Source: Crystallibacter degradans (GTDB taxonomy: Bacteria; Actinomycetota; Actinomycetes; Actinomycetales; Micrococcaceae). From it: a stretch of DNA of 64,000 nt. The DNA lies in assembly GCF_012952295.1 (NCBI RefSeq), contig NZ_JABBCH010000012.1:1-64000 (forward strand). Direction: 5' to 3'. Within the stretch, counting starts at the first letter, position 1. Every line of letters starts with the position of its first letter. Shown one piece after another: positions 28,071-51,639 of the stretch. The notes under the pieces were generated by a model, which worked only from the letters and a program-made list of their open reading frames with translations, was not told the origin of the DNA and did no database searches. The translations under genes and the position numbers were made by a program.

Positions 28071-28143
28071 TGGAGCTTAGGGGAATCGAACCCCTGACCT
28101 TTTCATTGCGAACGAAACGCTCTACCAACTGAGCTAAAGCCCC
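28071..28143 (-). tRNA. tRNA-Ala(CGC)
   Basis: A complete 73-nt cloverleaf is read on the minus strand. Acceptor GGGGCTT pairs with AAGCTCC, including the G3-U70 wobble that defines alanine identity. The D-arm is GCTC/GAGC, the anticodon stem TTTCG/TGAAA with loop TTCGCAA (anticodon CGC), and the T-arm AGGGG-TTCGAAT-CCCCT. The discriminator is A and CCA is not encoded, as in most Actinobacteria. It would decode GCG, common in a GC-rich genome. Confidence 0.97.
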
Positions 28144-45929: not shown

Positions 45930-46262
45930 CTCATTAGTCTGCGCGACTCCTATTGTGACGTCAAACACATCACTTCATCGTTATAGACACGATACTCGGT
46001 GACGCACCTACTCGGCATTGAATTGAAGTTTTCAACGAATTGTGAAGCGAGATACCAAACGGGAACCCGTTACCCTCCGGCGCCGGGACTGGCCCATCCG
46101 GCGAGTCCTGGACGTGACTAACCTGCAACGGGATGGTGACCGGAAATCCGTTTGTGGCTGGTTCTTTCGCGCGTATCGTGAGTGATAACCACAGGCCACC
46201 GGCCCCTGAGCGGATGTTTAAGCATCCTCGTCCCGGCGGCATCACGTTTACAGGGGGTCAAC
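45930..46262. other. ~330-bp intergenic region between divergent ABC operon and GerMN lipoprotein
   Basis: No gene is supported. An AT-rich tract at about 45955-46060 follows the operator cluster and would suit promoters for both directions. The ORF track in this stretch shows only short, motif-free frames. AGGGGG just before 46263 is the ribosome site of the next gene. Confidence 0.5.
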
Positions 46263-47399
46263 ATGAGCAAGCAACGAGTTCTGGGGACCGCATCAGCAGC
46301 CCTGCTGCTGGCTCTGACAGCGTGCAGCCCTCCGACCGGTCAAGGCCAGTCGCCAACGGCAAATCCACCGGCGACCGTCGTAGCCGAGCCACAGGGGATC
46401 ACCCCACCCACGAATACGGCTCCCGGCCCATCGGCTCCGCCAGCGGCGTCGGCCCCACCTGCTACGGTCCCCGCGCCGACCGAGGAAACGGCTGCAGCGC
46501 CAGTCGCCCAGTCGGAAGTTTCGGTGAGGTCAGAGAACGGGGCAGGAGTTCCCTTGACGATGTATTACATCGCAGTAGAAGACGGCGGGGTCTCTGGCGC
46601 GGAGATCGGTTGCAGGGACAGCCTCATCGCCGCCTATACGGAGCCTGTCAAGACTCAGGATCATGTGAAGGCCAGCATGGAACGCCTGCTCGCTGACGGG
46701 GACAGATTGCACGGATCATCCGGACTGTACAACGCCCTCCACGAATCCGCACTGACGTACGAACGCGCCAGGATCGATGGCGACACCGTCACCGTCCACC
46801 TTTCCGGGGAGCTCAAATCCGGAGGCTCGTGCGATGACCCGCGCATTGAATGGCAACTGAGACAAACCGCAGCCACTGCCGCCGGAGTCGGGGAGGCCAT
46901 CATCCTGATCAACGGGATGCGGATTGAGGATTACCTCAGCGGACGCGGCCCCGCCGTTCCCGAAGCACCGGCGCCTGCTGCACAGGCCCCCATTACAGTT
47001 CCCTTGACCGTCTACTACATCGGGCTCGCTGGCGAGGAGACTTCAGGCGGCGGTATAGGGTGCGGCGACAGCGTCGTTGCCACCCTTACACAGCCTGTGA
47101 CGTCCACCGATCAGCTTGGGGCGAGCATCACCCACTTGTTGGCAAACAAGCAGGAGTTTCTCGGCGAGTCAGGCCTCTATAACGCGCTGAACTCCTCTGC
47201 GTTGTCCTATCAAGGCAGCACCCAGGACGGCGATACCGTGACAGTTAATCTGTCCGGCAGTGTCACGGTCCGTGGAACCTGTGACGGTCCCCGCATTGAA
47301 GCGCAGTTGGAACAGACTGCTGCCACAGCCGCCGGTGTTGCCGAAGCCGTAGTACTAGTCAACGGCATCCCCATTGAAAAACTCGTCGCCGTAAAGTAG
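46263..47399 (+). CDS. Lipoprotein with two tandem GerMN domains
   Basis: AGGGGG before the ATG at 46263 gives 378 aa. The signal ends at lipobox LTAC (Cys21), then a Pro/Ala-rich linker to about residue 90. Two copies of one domain follow: residues ~96-225 (VPLTMYYIAVEDGG, GLYNALHESAL, GDTVTVHLSGELKSGGSC, DPRIEWQLRQTA) and ~246-372 (VPLTVYYIGLAGEE, GLYNALNSSAL, GDTVTVNLSGSVTVRGTC). Each has a Cys pair that could form a disulfide. This matches GerMN; surface role unknown. Confidence 0.82.
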   Translation: MSKQRVLGTASAALLLALTACSPPTGQGQSPTANPPATVVAEPQGITPPTNTAPGPSAPPAASAPPATVPAPTEETAAAPVAQSEVSVRSENGAGVPLTMYYIAVEDGGVSGAEIGCRDSLIAAYTEPVKTQDHVKASMERLLADGDRLHGSSGLYNALHESALTYERARIDGDTVTVHLSGELKSGGSCDDPRIEWQLRQTAATAAGVGEAIILINGMRIEDYLSGRGPAVPEAPAPAAQAPITVPLTVYYIGLAGEETSGGGIGCGDSVVATLTQPVTSTDQLGASITHLLANKQEFLGESGLYNALNSSALSYQGSTQDGDTVTVNLSGSVTVRGTCDGPRIEAQLEQTAATAAGVAEAVVLVNGIPIEKLVAVK

Positions 47400-47450
47400 C
47401 CATCAGTAGGCGTGGACGGCAGGGGCGTGCAGATTTGACGCGAACAGCCG

Positions 47451-47485
47451 ACTGGCCGGAACCGTTGGGGGCAGTTCCGGCCAGT
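47451..47485. repeat. Inverted repeat copy 1
   Basis: Arms ACTGGCCGGAAC and GTTCCGGCCAGT (perfect 12 bp) around an 11-nt loop CGTTGGGGGCA. Confidence 0.9.
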
Positions 47486-47498
47486 AGGCCTTGGGGGA

Positions 47499-47533
47499 AC
47501 TGGCCGGAACCGTTGGGGGAAGTTCCGGCCAGT
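47499..47533. repeat. Inverted repeat copy 2
   Basis: Same 12-bp arms as copy 1, loop CGTTGGGGGAA. A T-run (TTTATTTTTTT) follows 5 bp downstream, so copy 2 could serve as a terminator on the plus strand. Confidence 0.9.
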
Positions 47534-47555
47534 AGTTTATTTTTTTGGGGGGGTA

Positions 47556-47590
47556 ACTGGCCGGAGCCGTTGGGGGAAGCTCCGGCCAGT
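47556..47590. repeat. Inverted repeat copy 3 with a compensatory change
   Basis: Arms ACTGGCCGGAGC and GCTCCGGCCAGT, loop CGTTGGGGGAA. Relative to copies 1 and 2 both arms changed together (A to G and its partner T to C), so the stem stays perfect. Confidence 0.9.
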
Positions 47591-47615
47591 GGTTTATGGG
47601 GTCATCGTGCGGGAT

Positions 47616-47804
47616 TTACTGCCAGGCGTGGTCTGCCCAAGCTGCATCTCGCGAGTAATCGCTCCCACTCAGGTTCCACAGATCGCCATCTTGGCCGTGG
47701 GCTCCCACGACTCCGATCTGGTCGAGTGCTGAAGCCGGGCCTTGTTCTGCGTTGCCGGGGGCCAATGGGCCCACGGGCGCCGATGTGATGCCATAGGGAG
47801 TCAT
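47616..47804 (-). CDS. 62-aa ORF overlapping the SpaB_C gene, possible second peptide
   Basis: ATG 47804 overlaps the SpaB_C stop by four bases (ATGA), which suggests translational coupling. The product is acidic with Gly/Ala/Pro-rich N-terminal half and the C-terminal AAWADHAWQ, rich in Trp, Asp and Ala. The C-terminus is reminiscent of AAWDW in the 44-aa upstream peptide. No ribosome site of its own or known family. It could be a precursor, an immunity or leader-binding peptide, or an unused frame. Confidence 0.4.
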   Translation of the reverse strand: MTPYGITSAPVGPLAPGNAEQGPASALDQIGVVGAHGQDGDLWNLSGSDYSRDAAWADHAWQ

Positions 47805-48766
47805 CGTCTTCTCTTCTCCAACAGAGCGGATTCAGTTTCCGGGGTCCAGGCGCGGGCGTAAATTCCCAAAGCCGCCTCTTCCCACATTGTGAAGCCCAAG
47901 CGGTTCATCATCAGATGCGACTGGCTGAAAGTCAGATTCTGCGCACCGCGGCTGACCCTCGATTTATCTGCCCGGTACAGGTAGGCGTCAATAGCCCGCT
48001 TCCAGCGGCGACGCCAGTTCTGCACGCTACCTTCGGCTGCCGTGGCGGCCATCAGGCGGTGCATCGGTGCGGTTTTCGGCGCCAAGGTGGCAGTCAAACC
48101 GAGCCGGGCTTTGGCAGCGCCTCTTCCAAGTTCCATTGTCGAAACGCGGAGGTGGTTGTCCCAGCAGTAATCCCAGGAGAGCCGGCGGCGGTCCGGCCAC
48201 TGCGGAGCCTTCGGCCCGTTGAGCATGGCCCAAGCCGCGTCGGAGAGCAACAGTGCGCCGAGAGCAGTGCGGCCCTGCGACTTGTTGAACCGTTGCGCTG
48301 CCCAGCTACCAAGTTCAGAAGACAGTTCAAAGACCTCTTCGGCAAGTTCGAGCCCTTCGAGCCCGCCAAATCTGTCCAGATCCGATTCCTGCACCAAGGC
48401 GACAGTTCCCAGAGTGCCGATTAGATCCGTGCTGTCCGGCGACACGACGTAGTGCTGCTGGACTCGAACTGTTGGCAGGATTTCAAGGAGCCGGTTCCGG
48501 GCCGCCAGCTCAAACCTTTGGAGGCTATCAAGGGCTGAGCGGTGGCCCAGGAACCGGACCTTTAGGTGAGGCCCCACCTCATCAACATGGTGGCTGAAGT
48601 ACCAGCGGCCCACGCCTTCGCGGCGAGCGTGGGCCACCAGTGGTGTAATCAGTTCTCCTATGACGGTTTCGGCTACGTCTTGTCTACCCGTGTAAATAGA
48701 CAGGACCCACCAGTAGCGTTTGAGACTGAGCTTTTCCGAAGAGCGTACGGCTGTCAGCTGGCTCAT
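47801..48766 (-). CDS. Stand-alone SpaB_C / thiopeptide-type bacteriocin biosynthesis domain protein
   Basis: AGGAGAAGCGC precedes the ATG at 48766, giving 321 aa. Family marks are RYWWVLSIYTGRQD at 17-30, RWYFSHHVDEVGPHLKVRFL at 54-73 and the DRFGGLEGLELAEEVFELSS block near 132-151, all typical of the SpaB_C fold. In class I lanthipeptide and thiopeptide systems this domain catalyses glutamate elimination or a cycloaddition. Here no LanB glutamylation domain, cyclase or protease is adjacent. The catalytic step is therefore open. It lies between the 44-aa peptide gene and the 62-aa ORF. Confidence 0.85.
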   Translation of the reverse strand: MSQLTAVRSSEKLSLKRYWWVLSIYTGRQDVAETVIGELITPLVAHARREGVGRWYFSHHVDEVGPHLKVRFLGHRSALDSLQRFELAARNRLLEILPTVRVQQHYVVSPDSTDLIGTLGTVALVQESDLDRFGGLEGLELAEEVFELSSELGSWAAQRFNKSQGRTALGALLLSDAAWAMLNGPKAPQWPDRRRLSWDYCWDNHLRVSTMELGRGAAKARLGLTATLAPKTAPMHRLMAATAAEGSVQNWRRRWKRAIDAYLYRADKSRVSRGAQNLTFSQSHLMMNRLGFTMWEEAALGIYARAWTPETESALLEKRRR

Positions 48767-48865
48767 GCGCTTCTCCTAGATCTGCTCGCTGGTGGTTGGG
48801 GAGGGATAGCCGTTGCCGTCCTGATTACAGGATCAGCGGGTATGCTGTTGCGGTGGGGCAGCTTT

Positions 48866-49000
48866 TTACCAGTCCCACGCAGCCGTAACGATTGCGTTGG
48901 ACTGCTGGCCCTGGTCGGCTGCCACTGCAGGAGCGGCCGCGGAGACCGCACCTACAGCAAGCAGTAGACCTGCCGTAATGCCGGCGATCTTCTTGAACAT
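48866..49000 (-). CDS. 44-aa Sec-signal-bearing peptide, putative RiPP precursor
   Basis: ATG 49000 has AAGGGGAATGAC just upstream. The first ~28 residues are a good Sec signal (MFKKIAGITAGLLLAVGAVS, with AVAA before a likely cut). The predicted mature peptide is DQGQQSNAIVTAAWDW, 16 residues with three polar Gln, Ser, Asn and Thr positions and a Trp-Asp-Trp end. It is too short for the ORF list but codes cleanly to a TAA at 48866-48868. It lies 99 bp upstream of the SpaB_C gene on the same strand, in the position of a precursor. Modification is inferred. Confidence 0.6.
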   Translation of the reverse strand: MFKKIAGITAGLLLAVGAVSAAAPAVAADQGQQSNAIVTAAWDW

Positions 49001-49049
49001 GTCATTCCCCTTCGATGTGAGTGGCAATCCATCGAGTATCGTTCCCCCG

Positions 49050-49062
49050 ACTCTTCAAGAGT
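49050..49062. promoter_or_regulatory. Perfect dyad ahead of the 44-aa peptide gene
   Basis: ACTCTT-C-AAGAGT, 13 nt, lies 50 bp upstream of the peptide start, within likely promoter DNA of the minus-strand RiPP-like operon. The divergent regulator at 49300 is a natural candidate to bind it. Confidence 0.5.
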
Positions 49063-49205
49063 TCCGCGTCACCCGGCATGCTGTCCAGTCAATGTGGGGG
49101 CAACATCATGACATGCCCTTATCGGGACGAATCACGGCGTCCATGAACGTTCTGACACTTGGTCATAACCGCGGATTCCCGCATGATTCAAGGATTTTCC
49201 AACAT

Positions 49206-49224
49206 GAGTATGATTTGAGTATGA
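49206..49224 (+). promoter_or_regulatory. Direct repeats and TATGAT box upstream of the two-headed HTH regulator
   Basis: GAGTATGA occurs at 49206-49213 and 49217-49224, 11 bp apart (one helical turn). The first includes TATGAT (49209-49214), a good -10 element. A matching -35 is weak (ATTCAA). Tandem sites one turn apart suit cooperative binding, perhaps autoregulation. Confidence 0.45.
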
Positions 49225-49299
49225 CCACTACAGTTAGGTGGCACATACCGGACATGGCAGATAGTTACACACCACAATTCATGCTTGAGGGGGCACCAG

Positions 49300-50274
49300 A
49301 TGTTGAGTGGAACAGCCTTTGAGCTCTATGAATACGCGGTAACTCACCCGGACTGGACCAAGGAGTCCGCGTCGACTGCTCTCGGCTACACCATTCGGGA
49401 TCTCAATAGCGCCATTAATGAGCTCACTGGACGCCGCCTGTTCCAACAGCCGGCGCCCGATGTGGACTGCTTTACTGCCATCTCTCCGGACGTGGCCCTG
49501 GCGCAGCTGGTCGAGGTCGATGAACGTCTGCTTATCGATCTACGCGCCAAAATCAGCGGGCACCGGAGCGACATGGCTTCGCTCGTCCCCACATACCTTG
49601 CGGCACGAAAGCGAATCGCTCTCGATTCGTCCATTGAAATACTCGAAGACCCTGGGGTAATTCGAAAGCTACTGATGGACTACGGGCGGGATGTCACAGA
49701 ACAGGTCCTGATCAGCCAGCCTGGCTCAGGGTCTACGGCGGAGGTCCATGAAGAGGGCATCCAGAAGGACCTGGAACTCCTGGAACGCGGCATAGTCAGA
49801 AAAAATCTCTACAATGCCAGCACTCTGGATCATGTGCCTACTCGGAAAGCGGTCGCCGCGACGGCCCCCGCTGGCTTGGAATATCGGACATTGCCCTACG
49901 TGCCACTGAAAGTCCTGATCTTCGACCAGTCCTTGGCACTCGTAGCCCGCCAACTGGACGCCGATGATCGAGCAGCTCTGGTGGTGCGTGACGTCAATCT
50001 AATCCATGTATTCACGCAGTTATTCAATGTGGCATGGGAAGTTGCAACCCCCTACGGCTGGGAGACCGAAAGCCGAAACCCTGCTGACCTCAACAGCATT
50101 CAACGATCCGTCCTCCGCGGCATGGCTGCCGGTTACTCCGACGAAGTGATTGCACGGAGGCTGGACATCAGTGTGCGCACCTGCCGCCGGCATATCGCAT
50201 GGATGCTCGAAGGGCTGGGCGCCGAAAGCCGCTTCCAGGCGGCACTCAAGGCCAAAGAAGCAGGCTGGCTCTAG
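49300..50274 (+). CDS. Transcriptional regulator with N-terminal winged helix and C-terminal LuxR HTH
   Basis: GAGGGGG six bases before the ATG at 49300 gives 324 aa. The N-terminus (~1-60) reads like a TrmB/MarR-type winged helix (FELYEYAVTHPDWTKESAST, then SAINELTGRRLFQ). The middle is a PLD-like sensor region (for example LPYVPLKVLIFDQSLALVAR). The C-terminus is a LuxR HTH (NSIQRSVLRGMAAGYSDEVI, then VRTCRRHIAWMLEGLGAESR). Such regulators often sit next to peptide and secondary-metabolite loci. It is divergent from the peptide/SpaB_C genes and is their likely regulator. Confidence 0.8.
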   Translation: MLSGTAFELYEYAVTHPDWTKESASTALGYTIRDLNSAINELTGRRLFQQPAPDVDCFTAISPDVALAQLVEVDERLLIDLRAKISGHRSDMASLVPTYLAARKRIALDSSIEILEDPGVIRKLLMDYGRDVTEQVLISQPGSGSTAEVHEEGIQKDLELLERGIVRKNLYNASTLDHVPTRKAVAATAPAGLEYRTLPYVPLKVLIFDQSLALVARQLDADDRAALVVRDVNLIHVFTQLFNVAWEVATPYGWETESRNPADLNSIQRSVLRGMAAGYSDEVIARRLDISVRTCRRHIAWMLEGLGAESRFQAALKAKEAGWL

Positions 50275-50342: not shown

Positions 50343-50366
50343 TCCTGTGTGAGTGAGAACACAGGA
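50343..50366. promoter_or_regulatory. Inverted repeat over the GTG start of the aminotransferase gene
   Basis: TCCTGTGT and ACACAGGA (8-bp perfect arms, 8 bp apart) flank the GTG at 50353. TATCCT (50341-50346) is a possible -10, which would place the transcript start at or near the GTG, that is a leaderless mRNA. A repressor on this dyad would block it directly. Confidence 0.55.
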
Positions 50367-51639
50367 ATCTTCCGCTTCTGCCGACATGCCAACCGAAACC
50401 GAAGTAGCGCTTGAACGTGCGGTCACTTCGCATCGGCACCACAGTCTGTACTCGGACCGGGCAGCCAAAATCAAGCAATCCGCCGTTCGCGATGTCTTCG
50501 ATATTTCGCTACGCCCCGGCCTCGTCTCGCTCGCCGGAGGAAACCCGTTTTTGCAGTCCCTGCCCTTGGAGAAGCTCGCGGGAATGGCCTACAGGCTCAT
50601 CGCCGAGCAGGGCATGACAGCCCTCCAGTACGGCGGCGGCCAGGGAACCGAACGGCTTCGCACCCAGGCCTGTGAAGTCATGGCCGAGGAAGGCATTGAG
50701 GACGCCGACCCGGCGAACGTGGTGATCACCACCGGTTCCCAGTCCGCCCAGGACGTCGCCTGCAAGGTCTTCTGCAACCCCGGAGACGTTGTGCTCTGTG
50801 AAGACCCAACTTATGTGGGTGCCCTGAACACTTTCGAAGCTTATGAGGTCACGGTGGAGACCGTAGCCATGGATGAACTCGGCCTCATTCCCGACGAACT
50901 GCAGCGGCGCATTGATGAGGTCCGCTCTGCCGGCGGCAACATCAAGTTCCTTTACACCATCCCCAACTTCAACAACCCGTCGGGCATCACGCTCGCCGCA
51001 GAGCGCCGGCAGCGCGTCGTGGAGATCTGCCAGGACGCGAACATCCTGATCATCGAGGACAACCCGTACGGCTTGCTGCGCTTCGATGGCCACCCGATCG
51101 CCCCACTGCGCGCGGGCCACCCGGACGACGTGATCTACATGGGTTCGTTCTCCAAGATTCTCGCGCCCGGCCTGAGGATCGGTTGGGCCTTGGTGCCGGC
51201 GCATCTGCAGCGGCGTTTCTATCTGGCCAGTGAGGCAGTCACGCTCTGCCCGCCCACGCTGAACCAGATGCTCATCTCGGAGTACCTGGATGGCCACGAC
51301 TGGCGCGGGCAGATTACTACCTACCGCAGCCTCTATTCCGAGCGCTGCACAGCCATGCTCCAGGCGCTCGAAGACTTCATGCCGGAGGGCGTCAGCTGGA
51401 CCCAGCCGGAGGGCGGTTTCTTTATCTGGGTGAGCCTGCCGGAGGGAATCGACACCTACCCGCTGCTGTACAAGGCGATCGACGCCGGCGTCATCTTCAT
51501 TCCCGGCGCCGCCTTCACCCCATCCGACGATCCCTCCAGCAAGCTCAGGCTGGCATTTAGTGCCGTGTCCACCGAGAACATCCGTGAGGGCGTGCGCCGG
51601 TTGGCTCCCGTGTTGCAGGAGGCTATGGGTGCCCGGTAG
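50353..51639 (+). CDS. PLP-dependent aminotransferase, class I/II (2-aminoadipate transaminase/MocR-like)
   Basis: This 428-aa fold-type I aminotransferase has the substrate-binding SLAGGNPFLQSLP near residue 60, YGGGQGTERLR near 95, NNPSG near 205 and the Schiff-base Lys in GSFSKILAPGLRIGW near 272. It is closest in style to the LysN/aromatic-2-aminoadipate group without the MocR HTH. The GTG at 50353 may be leaderless; ATG 50386 is a shorter alternative. The amino acid used is unknown. Confidence 0.85.
   Translation: MRTQESSASADMPTETEVALERAVTSHRHHSLYSDRAAKIKQSAVRDVFDISLRPGLVSLAGGNPFLQSLPLEKLAGMAYRLIAEQGMTALQYGGGQGTERLRTQACEVMAEEGIEDADPANVVITTGSQSAQDVACKVFCNPGDVVLCEDPTYVGALNTFEAYEVTVETVAMDELGLIPDELQRRIDEVRSAGGNIKFLYTIPNFNNPSGITLAAERRQRVVEICQDANILIIEDNPYGLLRFDGHPIAPLRAGHPDDVIYMGSFSKILAPGLRIGWALVPAHLQRRFYLASEAVTLCPPTLNQMLISEYLDGHDWRGQITTYRSLYSERCTAMLQALEDFMPEGVSWTQPEGGFFIWVSLPEGIDTYPLLYKAIDAGVIFIPGAAFTPSDDPSSKLRLAFSAVSTENIREGVRRLAPVLQEAMGAR

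Follow-up and report, generated by a model that had tools for sequence, protein, structure and literature searches.

A conserved four-gene cassette with a WDW peptide gene and a lone SpaB_C protein in Crystallibacter degradans and its relatives

What does a SpaB_C-domain protein do when it is encoded alone, behind a gene for a very short peptide? The question is raised by a stretch of 64,000 nucleotides (nt) from contig NZ_JABBCH010000012.1 of Crystallibacter degradans, which we call the window. A first-pass annotation of this DNA had described a compact island made up of a 44-codon gene, a SpaB_C protein, an overlapping 62-residue open reading frame (ORF) and a divergent regulator, and had proposed that it is either a minimal peptide-modification system or a peptide hormone with its processing protein. 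We confirmed all four ORFs at the coordinates given there, including the ATGA overlap between the SpaB_C gene and the ORF that follows it. Together they form a cassette with the gene order R-A-B-C:

48866-49000, minus strand: A, a 44-residue Sec-type peptide ending in ...AAWDW-stop, its signal judged by eye
47801-48766, minus strand: B, a 321-residue lone SpaB_C / Lant_dehydr_C protein
47616-47804, minus strand: C, a 62-residue protein with the conserved tail YSRDAAWADHAWQ-stop
49300-50274, plus strand: R, a 324-residue divergent regulator with an N-terminal TrmB-like winged helix, a PLD-fold middle and a C-terminal LuxR/GerE helix-turn-helix

The cassette is conserved in many relatives of soil Arthrobacter bacteria, and it has the look of a peptide-product or peptide-signal system not described before. 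No description of it was found in the open-access literature that we searched, where peptide strings brought up only work on venom-derived or other antimicrobial peptides. The explanation that we favor, tentatively and as a proposition not far from evenly balanced, is that R-A-B-C forms an autoregulated and self-contained peptide cassette, with a WDW peptide that B binds or processes and with C as the partner of B. The observations beneath it are the conserved parts, their order and co-occurrence, the fold and a histidine of B, the absence of LanB and LanC matches, and operator-like sites.

The short peptide gene A

Seventy-three loci that have both B and C were checked on DNA, and at every one of them an ORF that ends near WxW lies 76-148 nt before B; the motif is W[DE]W at 72 loci and WGW at the remaining one. 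In the window the gap from A to B is 99 nt, and GAAGGGGAAT precedes the ATG of A. The rule by which W[DE]W ORFs were searched was set after the loci had been inspected, and for this reason it is the controls that carry the weight. A W[DE]W ORF with a Shine-Dalgarno-like sequence was present in the 400 nt before B at 72 of the 73 loci (the WGW locus fails the rule), in 3 of 3650 dinucleotide shuffles, in 2 of 2182 flanking windows, and before none of the 34 B genes without C (33 orphans and locus L056). The type of frame first noticed as 44 codons in the window is kept in relatives, at all 73 loci with B and C, with the reservation that B genes standing without C lack it. The possibility that A or C is a chance ORF was ruled out by these shuffle, orphan and flank controls, together with conservation.

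Across the 109 motif copies in these genes (94 WDW, 14 WEW and one WGW) Asp or Glu occupies the middle position in 108, and the residue before the motif is Ser in 75, Val in 17, Ala in 9, Asn in 5 and Ile in 3. A single in-frame copy is present in 46 A genes, two copies in 22, three in 3, four in 1 and six in 1, and such tandem copies suit a peptide that is made in multiple copies. The genomes L050 and L053 of genus g25 have 4 and 6 in-frame GVWDWPQQ units, and loci of genus g31 carry between one and three SWDWPK units, NWEWPK being present in two of them.

The forms of A span a range from signal-peptide precursors with one to six tandem copies to leaderless genes of 7-17 codons in one genus, signal sequences having been judged by eye with no predictor. 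The A genes of genus g32 without an evident signal encode MKSWDWF (8 loci), MTKVWDWI (3), MTSKVWDWL (2), MKKATAPVSIKSWEWF (3) and close variants; overall, 26 of the 73 A peptides have at most 33 residues, and 25 have at most 17. Because one genus has leaderless genes, a Sec signal is not essential to the system. The first-pass annotation had called the layout unusual both for its Sec-type precursor and for having only one modification protein; unusual it is, and no LanB was matched in the genome (see below). The active part of A would be W-[DE]-W with its flanks, derived from an exported precursor with one to several copies, or made directly as a peptide of 7-17 residues in the one genus.

Variation by codon position was computed for sets of A genes of equal length. 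In 20 genes of 47 codons the values are 0.237, 0.139 and 0.361, with position 3 the highest, and position 3 is also the most variable in the sets of 45, 58, 17, 9 and 8 codons. It is not the highest in the sets of 10 codons (0.087, 0.037, 0.0) and 18 codons (0.167, 0.194, 0.181), and this test says little for the shortest A genes. The A peptide matches no family in Pfam or NCBIfam, and no Cys occurs after residue 25 in any of the 73.

Distribution of the cassette and tests for LanB partners

Relatives of B were present in 26 of 148 genomes. A B profile built from 15 sequences found matches in 88 of the 395 family genomes, spread over 11 of 32 genera; of the genomes drawn from the order it matched 19 of 396, and of those drawn from the class 16 of 296, the three draws being overlapping. 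Outside the family, strong scores were confined to G896 and G992 (E about 1e-73, the next best being 2.6e-16), and in these two a ~1000-residue ORF with a LanB_N match adjoins B. A profile of C matched 80 of the 395 family genomes, with a single copy in each and with B beside it in all 80; in the seven genomes outside the DNA-checked set (G205, G229, G270, G329, G343, G385 and G409) C lies within about 70 nt of the B match, by the coordinates of the profile matches. C is thus a conserved part of the cassette, which extends what had been noted as a 62-residue ORF. Eight genomes have B without C: G014, G030 and G371 hold split-LanB clusters, the sequence of G073 breaks off at a contig end, locus L056 of G016 combines R with B but lacks C, and the rest are G262 and G310 (weak matches) and G342. 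R is divergent from and adjacent to the other genes at 69 of the 73 loci, and the four loci without R (L048, L128, L163 and L164) all come from genus g32.

The first-pass annotation had allowed that a LanB encoded elsewhere might account for B. No such partner was found: the LanB glutamylation domain (PF04738) was matched neither in the genome of C. degradans itself nor in any of 30 lone-B genomes (29 with C, and G016). The Lant_dehydr_N-type ligase of the PEARL pathway was not found in the same LanB_N search of the lone-B genomes. Because 14 named control genomes gave no LanB_N match, five expected positives were added; PF04738 was detected in all five at E <= 0.001, and above the curated cut-off in four. 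The LanC cyclase (PF05147) was matched in 0 of the 30 lone-B genomes, in 2 of the 5 expected positives and in 1 of the 14 named controls.

The core of A has no conserved Ser, Thr or Cys, and so there is no obvious substrate for glutamate elimination or aza-cycloaddition. Neither A nor C has a conserved Ser pair, from which LanB makes the two dehydroalanines that a thiopeptide [4+2] cyclase requires. With no LanB or LanC matches and no Ser/Thr/Cys core, a lanthipeptide or thiopeptide cluster was ruled out.

The genes on either side of the cassette in the window are:

50353-51639, plus strand: a class I/II aminotransferase, the neighbor of R on the same strand; a core gene, probably outside the cassette
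46182-47399: a secreted Germane (GerMN)-domain protein adjoining the cassette, with two similar halves by eye

An aminotransferase gene lies at most 1.5 kb downstream of R, on the same strand, at 65 of the 72 loci with R (the 69 cassette loci together with L056, L059 and L062). This gene is common in the family, being present in 46 of 61 genomes at E <= 1e-100, cassette-free genomes included. Among 30 aminotransferase loci, R was found within flanks of ~1.5 kb in 9, all of them from cassette genomes, and in 0 of the 18 whose genomes gave no B match; 3 of the 30 belong to cassette or L056 genomes in which R lies beyond the ~1.5-kb flank. The cassette therefore behaves as a unit beside a core gene, in keeping with its description as a compact island. 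A search of the plasmid collection gave no plasmid-borne copies of the cassette. Its four genes include no protease or exporter gene, the flanks having been compared for three neighbors only.

Germane-like genes also occur near some other cassette loci. Directly downstream of C, at 47445-47597, there are three copies of a 48-nt repeat, each with an inverted repeat like ACTGGCCGGAAC...GTTCCGGCCAGT; these repeats may mark the end of an A-B-C transcript on the minus strand. A search of the whole window against Rfam at gathering scores had a tRNA gene (28071-28143, minus strand) as its sole match, and gave no known RNA element at the cassette.

The SpaB_C protein B and its proposed partner C

B matches Lant_dehydr_C (PF14028) with E 1.3e-23 and narrowly passes TIGR03891 (48.7 versus 48.45 bits). 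Its AlphaFold model, a confident one with a predicted local distance difference test (pLDDT) score of 91.8, gave 18 Foldseek matches at E <= 0.001, to MibB, MadB, TbtD, PbtD, TsrL, NisB and a [4+2] aza-cyclase, with template-modeling (TM) scores on B of 0.44-0.61. A sequence search of the PDB with the single B sequence gave no match at E <= 1, and a search with the B profile gave MibB weakly (E 0.0027) and one dynamin-like chance match (E 0.59).

NisB numbering was mapped onto B by alignments and by the S958, H961 and R966 mutants quoted in PMC4341554. H284, R71 and R132 of the window protein are equivalent to H961, R786 and R826 of NisB, so that all three are kept. In NisB, H961A is reported to be inactive and R784A slightly reduced (PMC4341554). 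The H284 position is His in 69 of 71 cassette B proteins, in 2 of 33 orphan B proteins and in 6 of 7 outgroup B proteins, and position 132 in the 71 cassette proteins is Arg or Lys, except for Thr in 5. B proteins encoded together with A and C thus retain the elimination histidine, and most of those encoded without them have lost it; part of the glutamate pocket drifts.

Among the matches listed, at least 33 are orphan B genes, all from g32, and one genome of that genus (G369) has at least five orphans besides its cassette B. Some of the orphans (examples are L167 and L145, also L129, L130 and L131) are clustered; they have no R, A or C nearby and are mostly without the catalytic-type His. Several share an upstream block around 'CTGCTGGAAGTATATGAGCCTGACGGCATC'. 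In a tree, the B relatives that stand beside LanB_N proteins (L059, L060 and G896/G992) fall outside cassette B. The cluster at L059, in G030, brings together relatives of B and of R (462 bits for the latter) with genes for an M50 peptidase, a LanB_N protein and an MFS transporter and with a 129-residue ORF; an R-like regulator thus goes also with a split-LanB cluster.

The tail of C reads RDxxWAxxxWx-stop at all 73 loci, and RDAAWAxxxWx-stop at 69; the C-terminus is in every case one residue past the last Trp, and the tail is kept even where the rest of the protein has degenerated (L190, L191, L195 and L196). The N-terminal half is variable. C of the window has no family match in Pfam or NCBIfam, and the idea that C is a known Pfam domain was dropped after six C proteins had been scanned with none at cut-off; one relative gave weak HTH_17 (E 0.21) and DUF3853 (E 0.16) matches and another KH_DUF2096_C (E 0.21), the HTH_17-like segment being absent in the window genus.

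An invariant tail, on a single-copy gene directly behind B, would also fit a scheme in which C is the true precursor of B and A a mere inducer, with RDxxWAxxxWx as the modified core of a conserved cofactor-like product. We consider this very unlikely, as Ser, Thr and Cys are not conserved in the tail, locus L056 has R and B and no C, and the cassette encodes neither protease nor exporter. In the explanation that we favor, B would be a descendant of the elimination half of a split LanB, the glutamylating partner having been lost. It would bind the A peptide, as substrate or ligand, and then process or modify it, probably by means of the retained active-site His, and C would partner B, presumably by binding to it, through the conserved C-terminal tail. 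A more specific proposal, which we think unlikely, is that the cassette represents a LanB-free class of ribosomally synthesized and post-translationally modified peptides (RiPPs). Here the Asp or Glu of the peptide would replace the transferred glutamate in the old pocket and the His would abstract an alpha-proton, giving for example an epimerized or cross-linked Trp peptide; C would be a trans-acting guide that docks on B by its tail, and precursors could be as small as seven codons.

Known relatives of B help to place the cassette. The thiopeptide [4+2] pyridine synthases TbtD, PbtD and TsrL are likewise stand-alone SpaB_C proteins, of similar length and with TM-scores of 0.54-0.61 on B, and they act on dehydroalanine-bearing cores beside LanB and YcaO enzymes; in the cassette, by contrast, neither A nor C has a conserved Ser, and no LanB was matched. 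The split LanB elimination subunits, such as SptBb of SapT, belong to the same Lant_dehydr_C family as B, and an equivalent of H961 is present in most of the outgroup proteins. SptBb itself is without the His (PMC9011353). The cassette differs from these systems in having no LanB_N or LanC match and no Ser/Thr/Cys core, and in having a Sec-type or leaderless 7-residue peptide gene and the proposed partner C. CoiSA-type stand-alone elimination-domain proteins are, like B, extra PF14028 proteins outside a LanB (PMC7268733, PMC9011353). Their clusters also encode a full LanB, and fusion to a PCMT methyltransferase is frequent among them; the cassette genomes have no LanB match.

Regulator R, its putative sites, and signaling alternatives

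R matches GerE (E 1.2e-8), with TrmB just below the cut-off (21.6 versus 22.2 bits). A Foldseek search with its structural model (pLDDT 83, predicted TM-score 0.58) ranked TrmBL2/TrmB first and also returned PLD-family proteins and LuxR-type regulators. Candidate control elements ahead of A and B are:

49239-49259, minus strand: operator 1, a putative binding site of R (TGCCATGTCCGGTATGTGCCA), close to where R starts and conserved in alignments
49098-49118, minus strand: putative R operator 2 (GGGCATGTCATGATGTTGCCC, inverted repeat GGGCA/TGCCC), a conserved CATGTC(C) block upstream of A
49082-49087, minus strand: a -35-like TGGACA, 10 nt past putative operator 2, with (T)GGACA conserved in most alignment rows
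48782-48795, minus strand: a faint trace of the CGCCCCAGCGG-GGTAACC element that precedes B in other genera

In the favored explanation R would bind the two sites between R and A and so turn on A-B-C, and it may sense the product. The -35-like box lies beyond operator 2, as would be expected if R were an activator. In the alignment of g31 and g25 there is a conserved CATTCT-like -10 at 17-18 nt from this box, which the window lacks; an in-frame TTG at 49285 lies ahead of the R start. When operator 1 (21 nt, at most 3 mismatches) was searched for, 7 of 10 genomes of the genus gave one match each, and all seven matches lie between R and A. We therefore set aside a wider R regulon, in a search limited to operator 1, which matched only at the locus; the three genomes without a match and the matches to a reversed pattern (see below) leave room for one.

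The interval before B bears on an alternative in which A is a regulatory leader ORF. Here B and C would be controlled at the W-x-W codons, by ribosomes that stall there or by the sensing of Trp starvation, the peptide itself being functionless. CCAG[CT]G is present within 75 nt before B at 67 of the 73 loci (a raw count, without a shuffle control), and in most other genera this element forms a hairpin 36-45 nt before B, which is not stable in the window genus. Together with the position of A 76-148 nt ahead of B at all 73 loci, such a hairpin would suit a leader, as would those A genes that are 7-9 codons long and have both Trp codons beside the stop; moreover, TGGGANTGG could be a nucleotide motif, the shortest A genes having no clear codon-position signature. 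Against this, the middle residue of the motif is Asp or Glu in all copies but one, and the genes retain their hydrophobic N-termini and the tandem repeats in frame. The hairpin, in the segments read, is clear of the Shine-Dalgarno region and is not followed by a U-tract, no dedicated terminator scan having been made. We judge a leader function distinctly unlikely.

A doubtful but more serious contender is sensing without chemistry. In this alternative A would be a pheromone, secreted and re-imported, or intracellular if leaderless; B would be a peptide receptor that arose from a RiPP enzyme and is not catalytic, with R controlling the locus, and the peptide-like tail of C (AAWADxxW) may occupy B until the signal arrives. 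The layout of divergent regulator, short peptide gene and target operon appears to resemble that of Rgg-SHP. In the Rgg-SHP and ComQXPA pheromone cassettes of Bacillota, too, a very short peptide gene, leaderless or Sec-type, heads a regulated operon beside a regulator, and ComX carries a modified Trp. The Rgg-SHP arrangement, with a short peptide ORF divergent from the regulator and ahead of the target, is found at 69 of the 73 loci, a likeness of architecture only: R is of the TrmB/PLD-LuxR type, not an RRNPP protein or histidine kinase, B has no kinship with radical SAM enzymes or prenyl transferases, and no import or export gene is among the four.

A receptor role would also be in line with the variation of motif types among genera and within g32 (SWDWPK, KSWDWF, KSWEWF, KVWDWI/L, GVWDWPQQ, AAWDW), and the orphan B copies of the one genus could be solo receptors. 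However, a pure receptor would not need the catalytic-type His that nearly all cassette B proteins retain, the motif is very conserved for a pheromone, and the operator 1 search, limited as it was, showed no regulon beyond the locus itself.

A number of observations count against the autoregulated peptide cassette that we favor, in addition to the lack of conserved Ser, Thr or Cys in the A core. Operator 1 was unmatched at the locus in 3 of the 10 genus genomes, and a reversed control pattern matched 3 times. The position of R71 (NisB R786) is Arg in only 30 of the 71 cassette B proteins. The 26 A peptides of at most 33 residues have no evident signal, no dedicated exporter search having been made. 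L056, with R and B and no C, has a candidate short ORF with the stretch ...GIYDWPTVA, with YDWP, as read by eye in an alignment and with an uncertain start. Finally, B is split in two frames beside intact A, C and R at L061 and L197 (2 of the 73 loci), some other B matches are partial, and in G385 B is in two pieces beside C. Split or partial B genes imply that B can be lost before the rest of the cassette, and some strains may not need B or may have lost it recently.

As far as conservation goes, the choice originally put forward, between a minimal peptide-modification system and a peptide hormone, is supported in part, and that B modifies A is something that we infer. If B does act on the peptide, it would be a SpaB_C enzyme that works without LanB and without a classical leader, on precursors down to seven codons. 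The groups of the published PF14028 network, as described in PMC9011353, are full-length LanBs, split LanBs and a lanthipeptide-cluster group with two elimination domains, and none of them covers an enzyme of this kind. A search for lanthipeptides that takes LanC as its starting point (PMC7268733) would miss the cassette. Its parts list is short enough for direct reconstitution.

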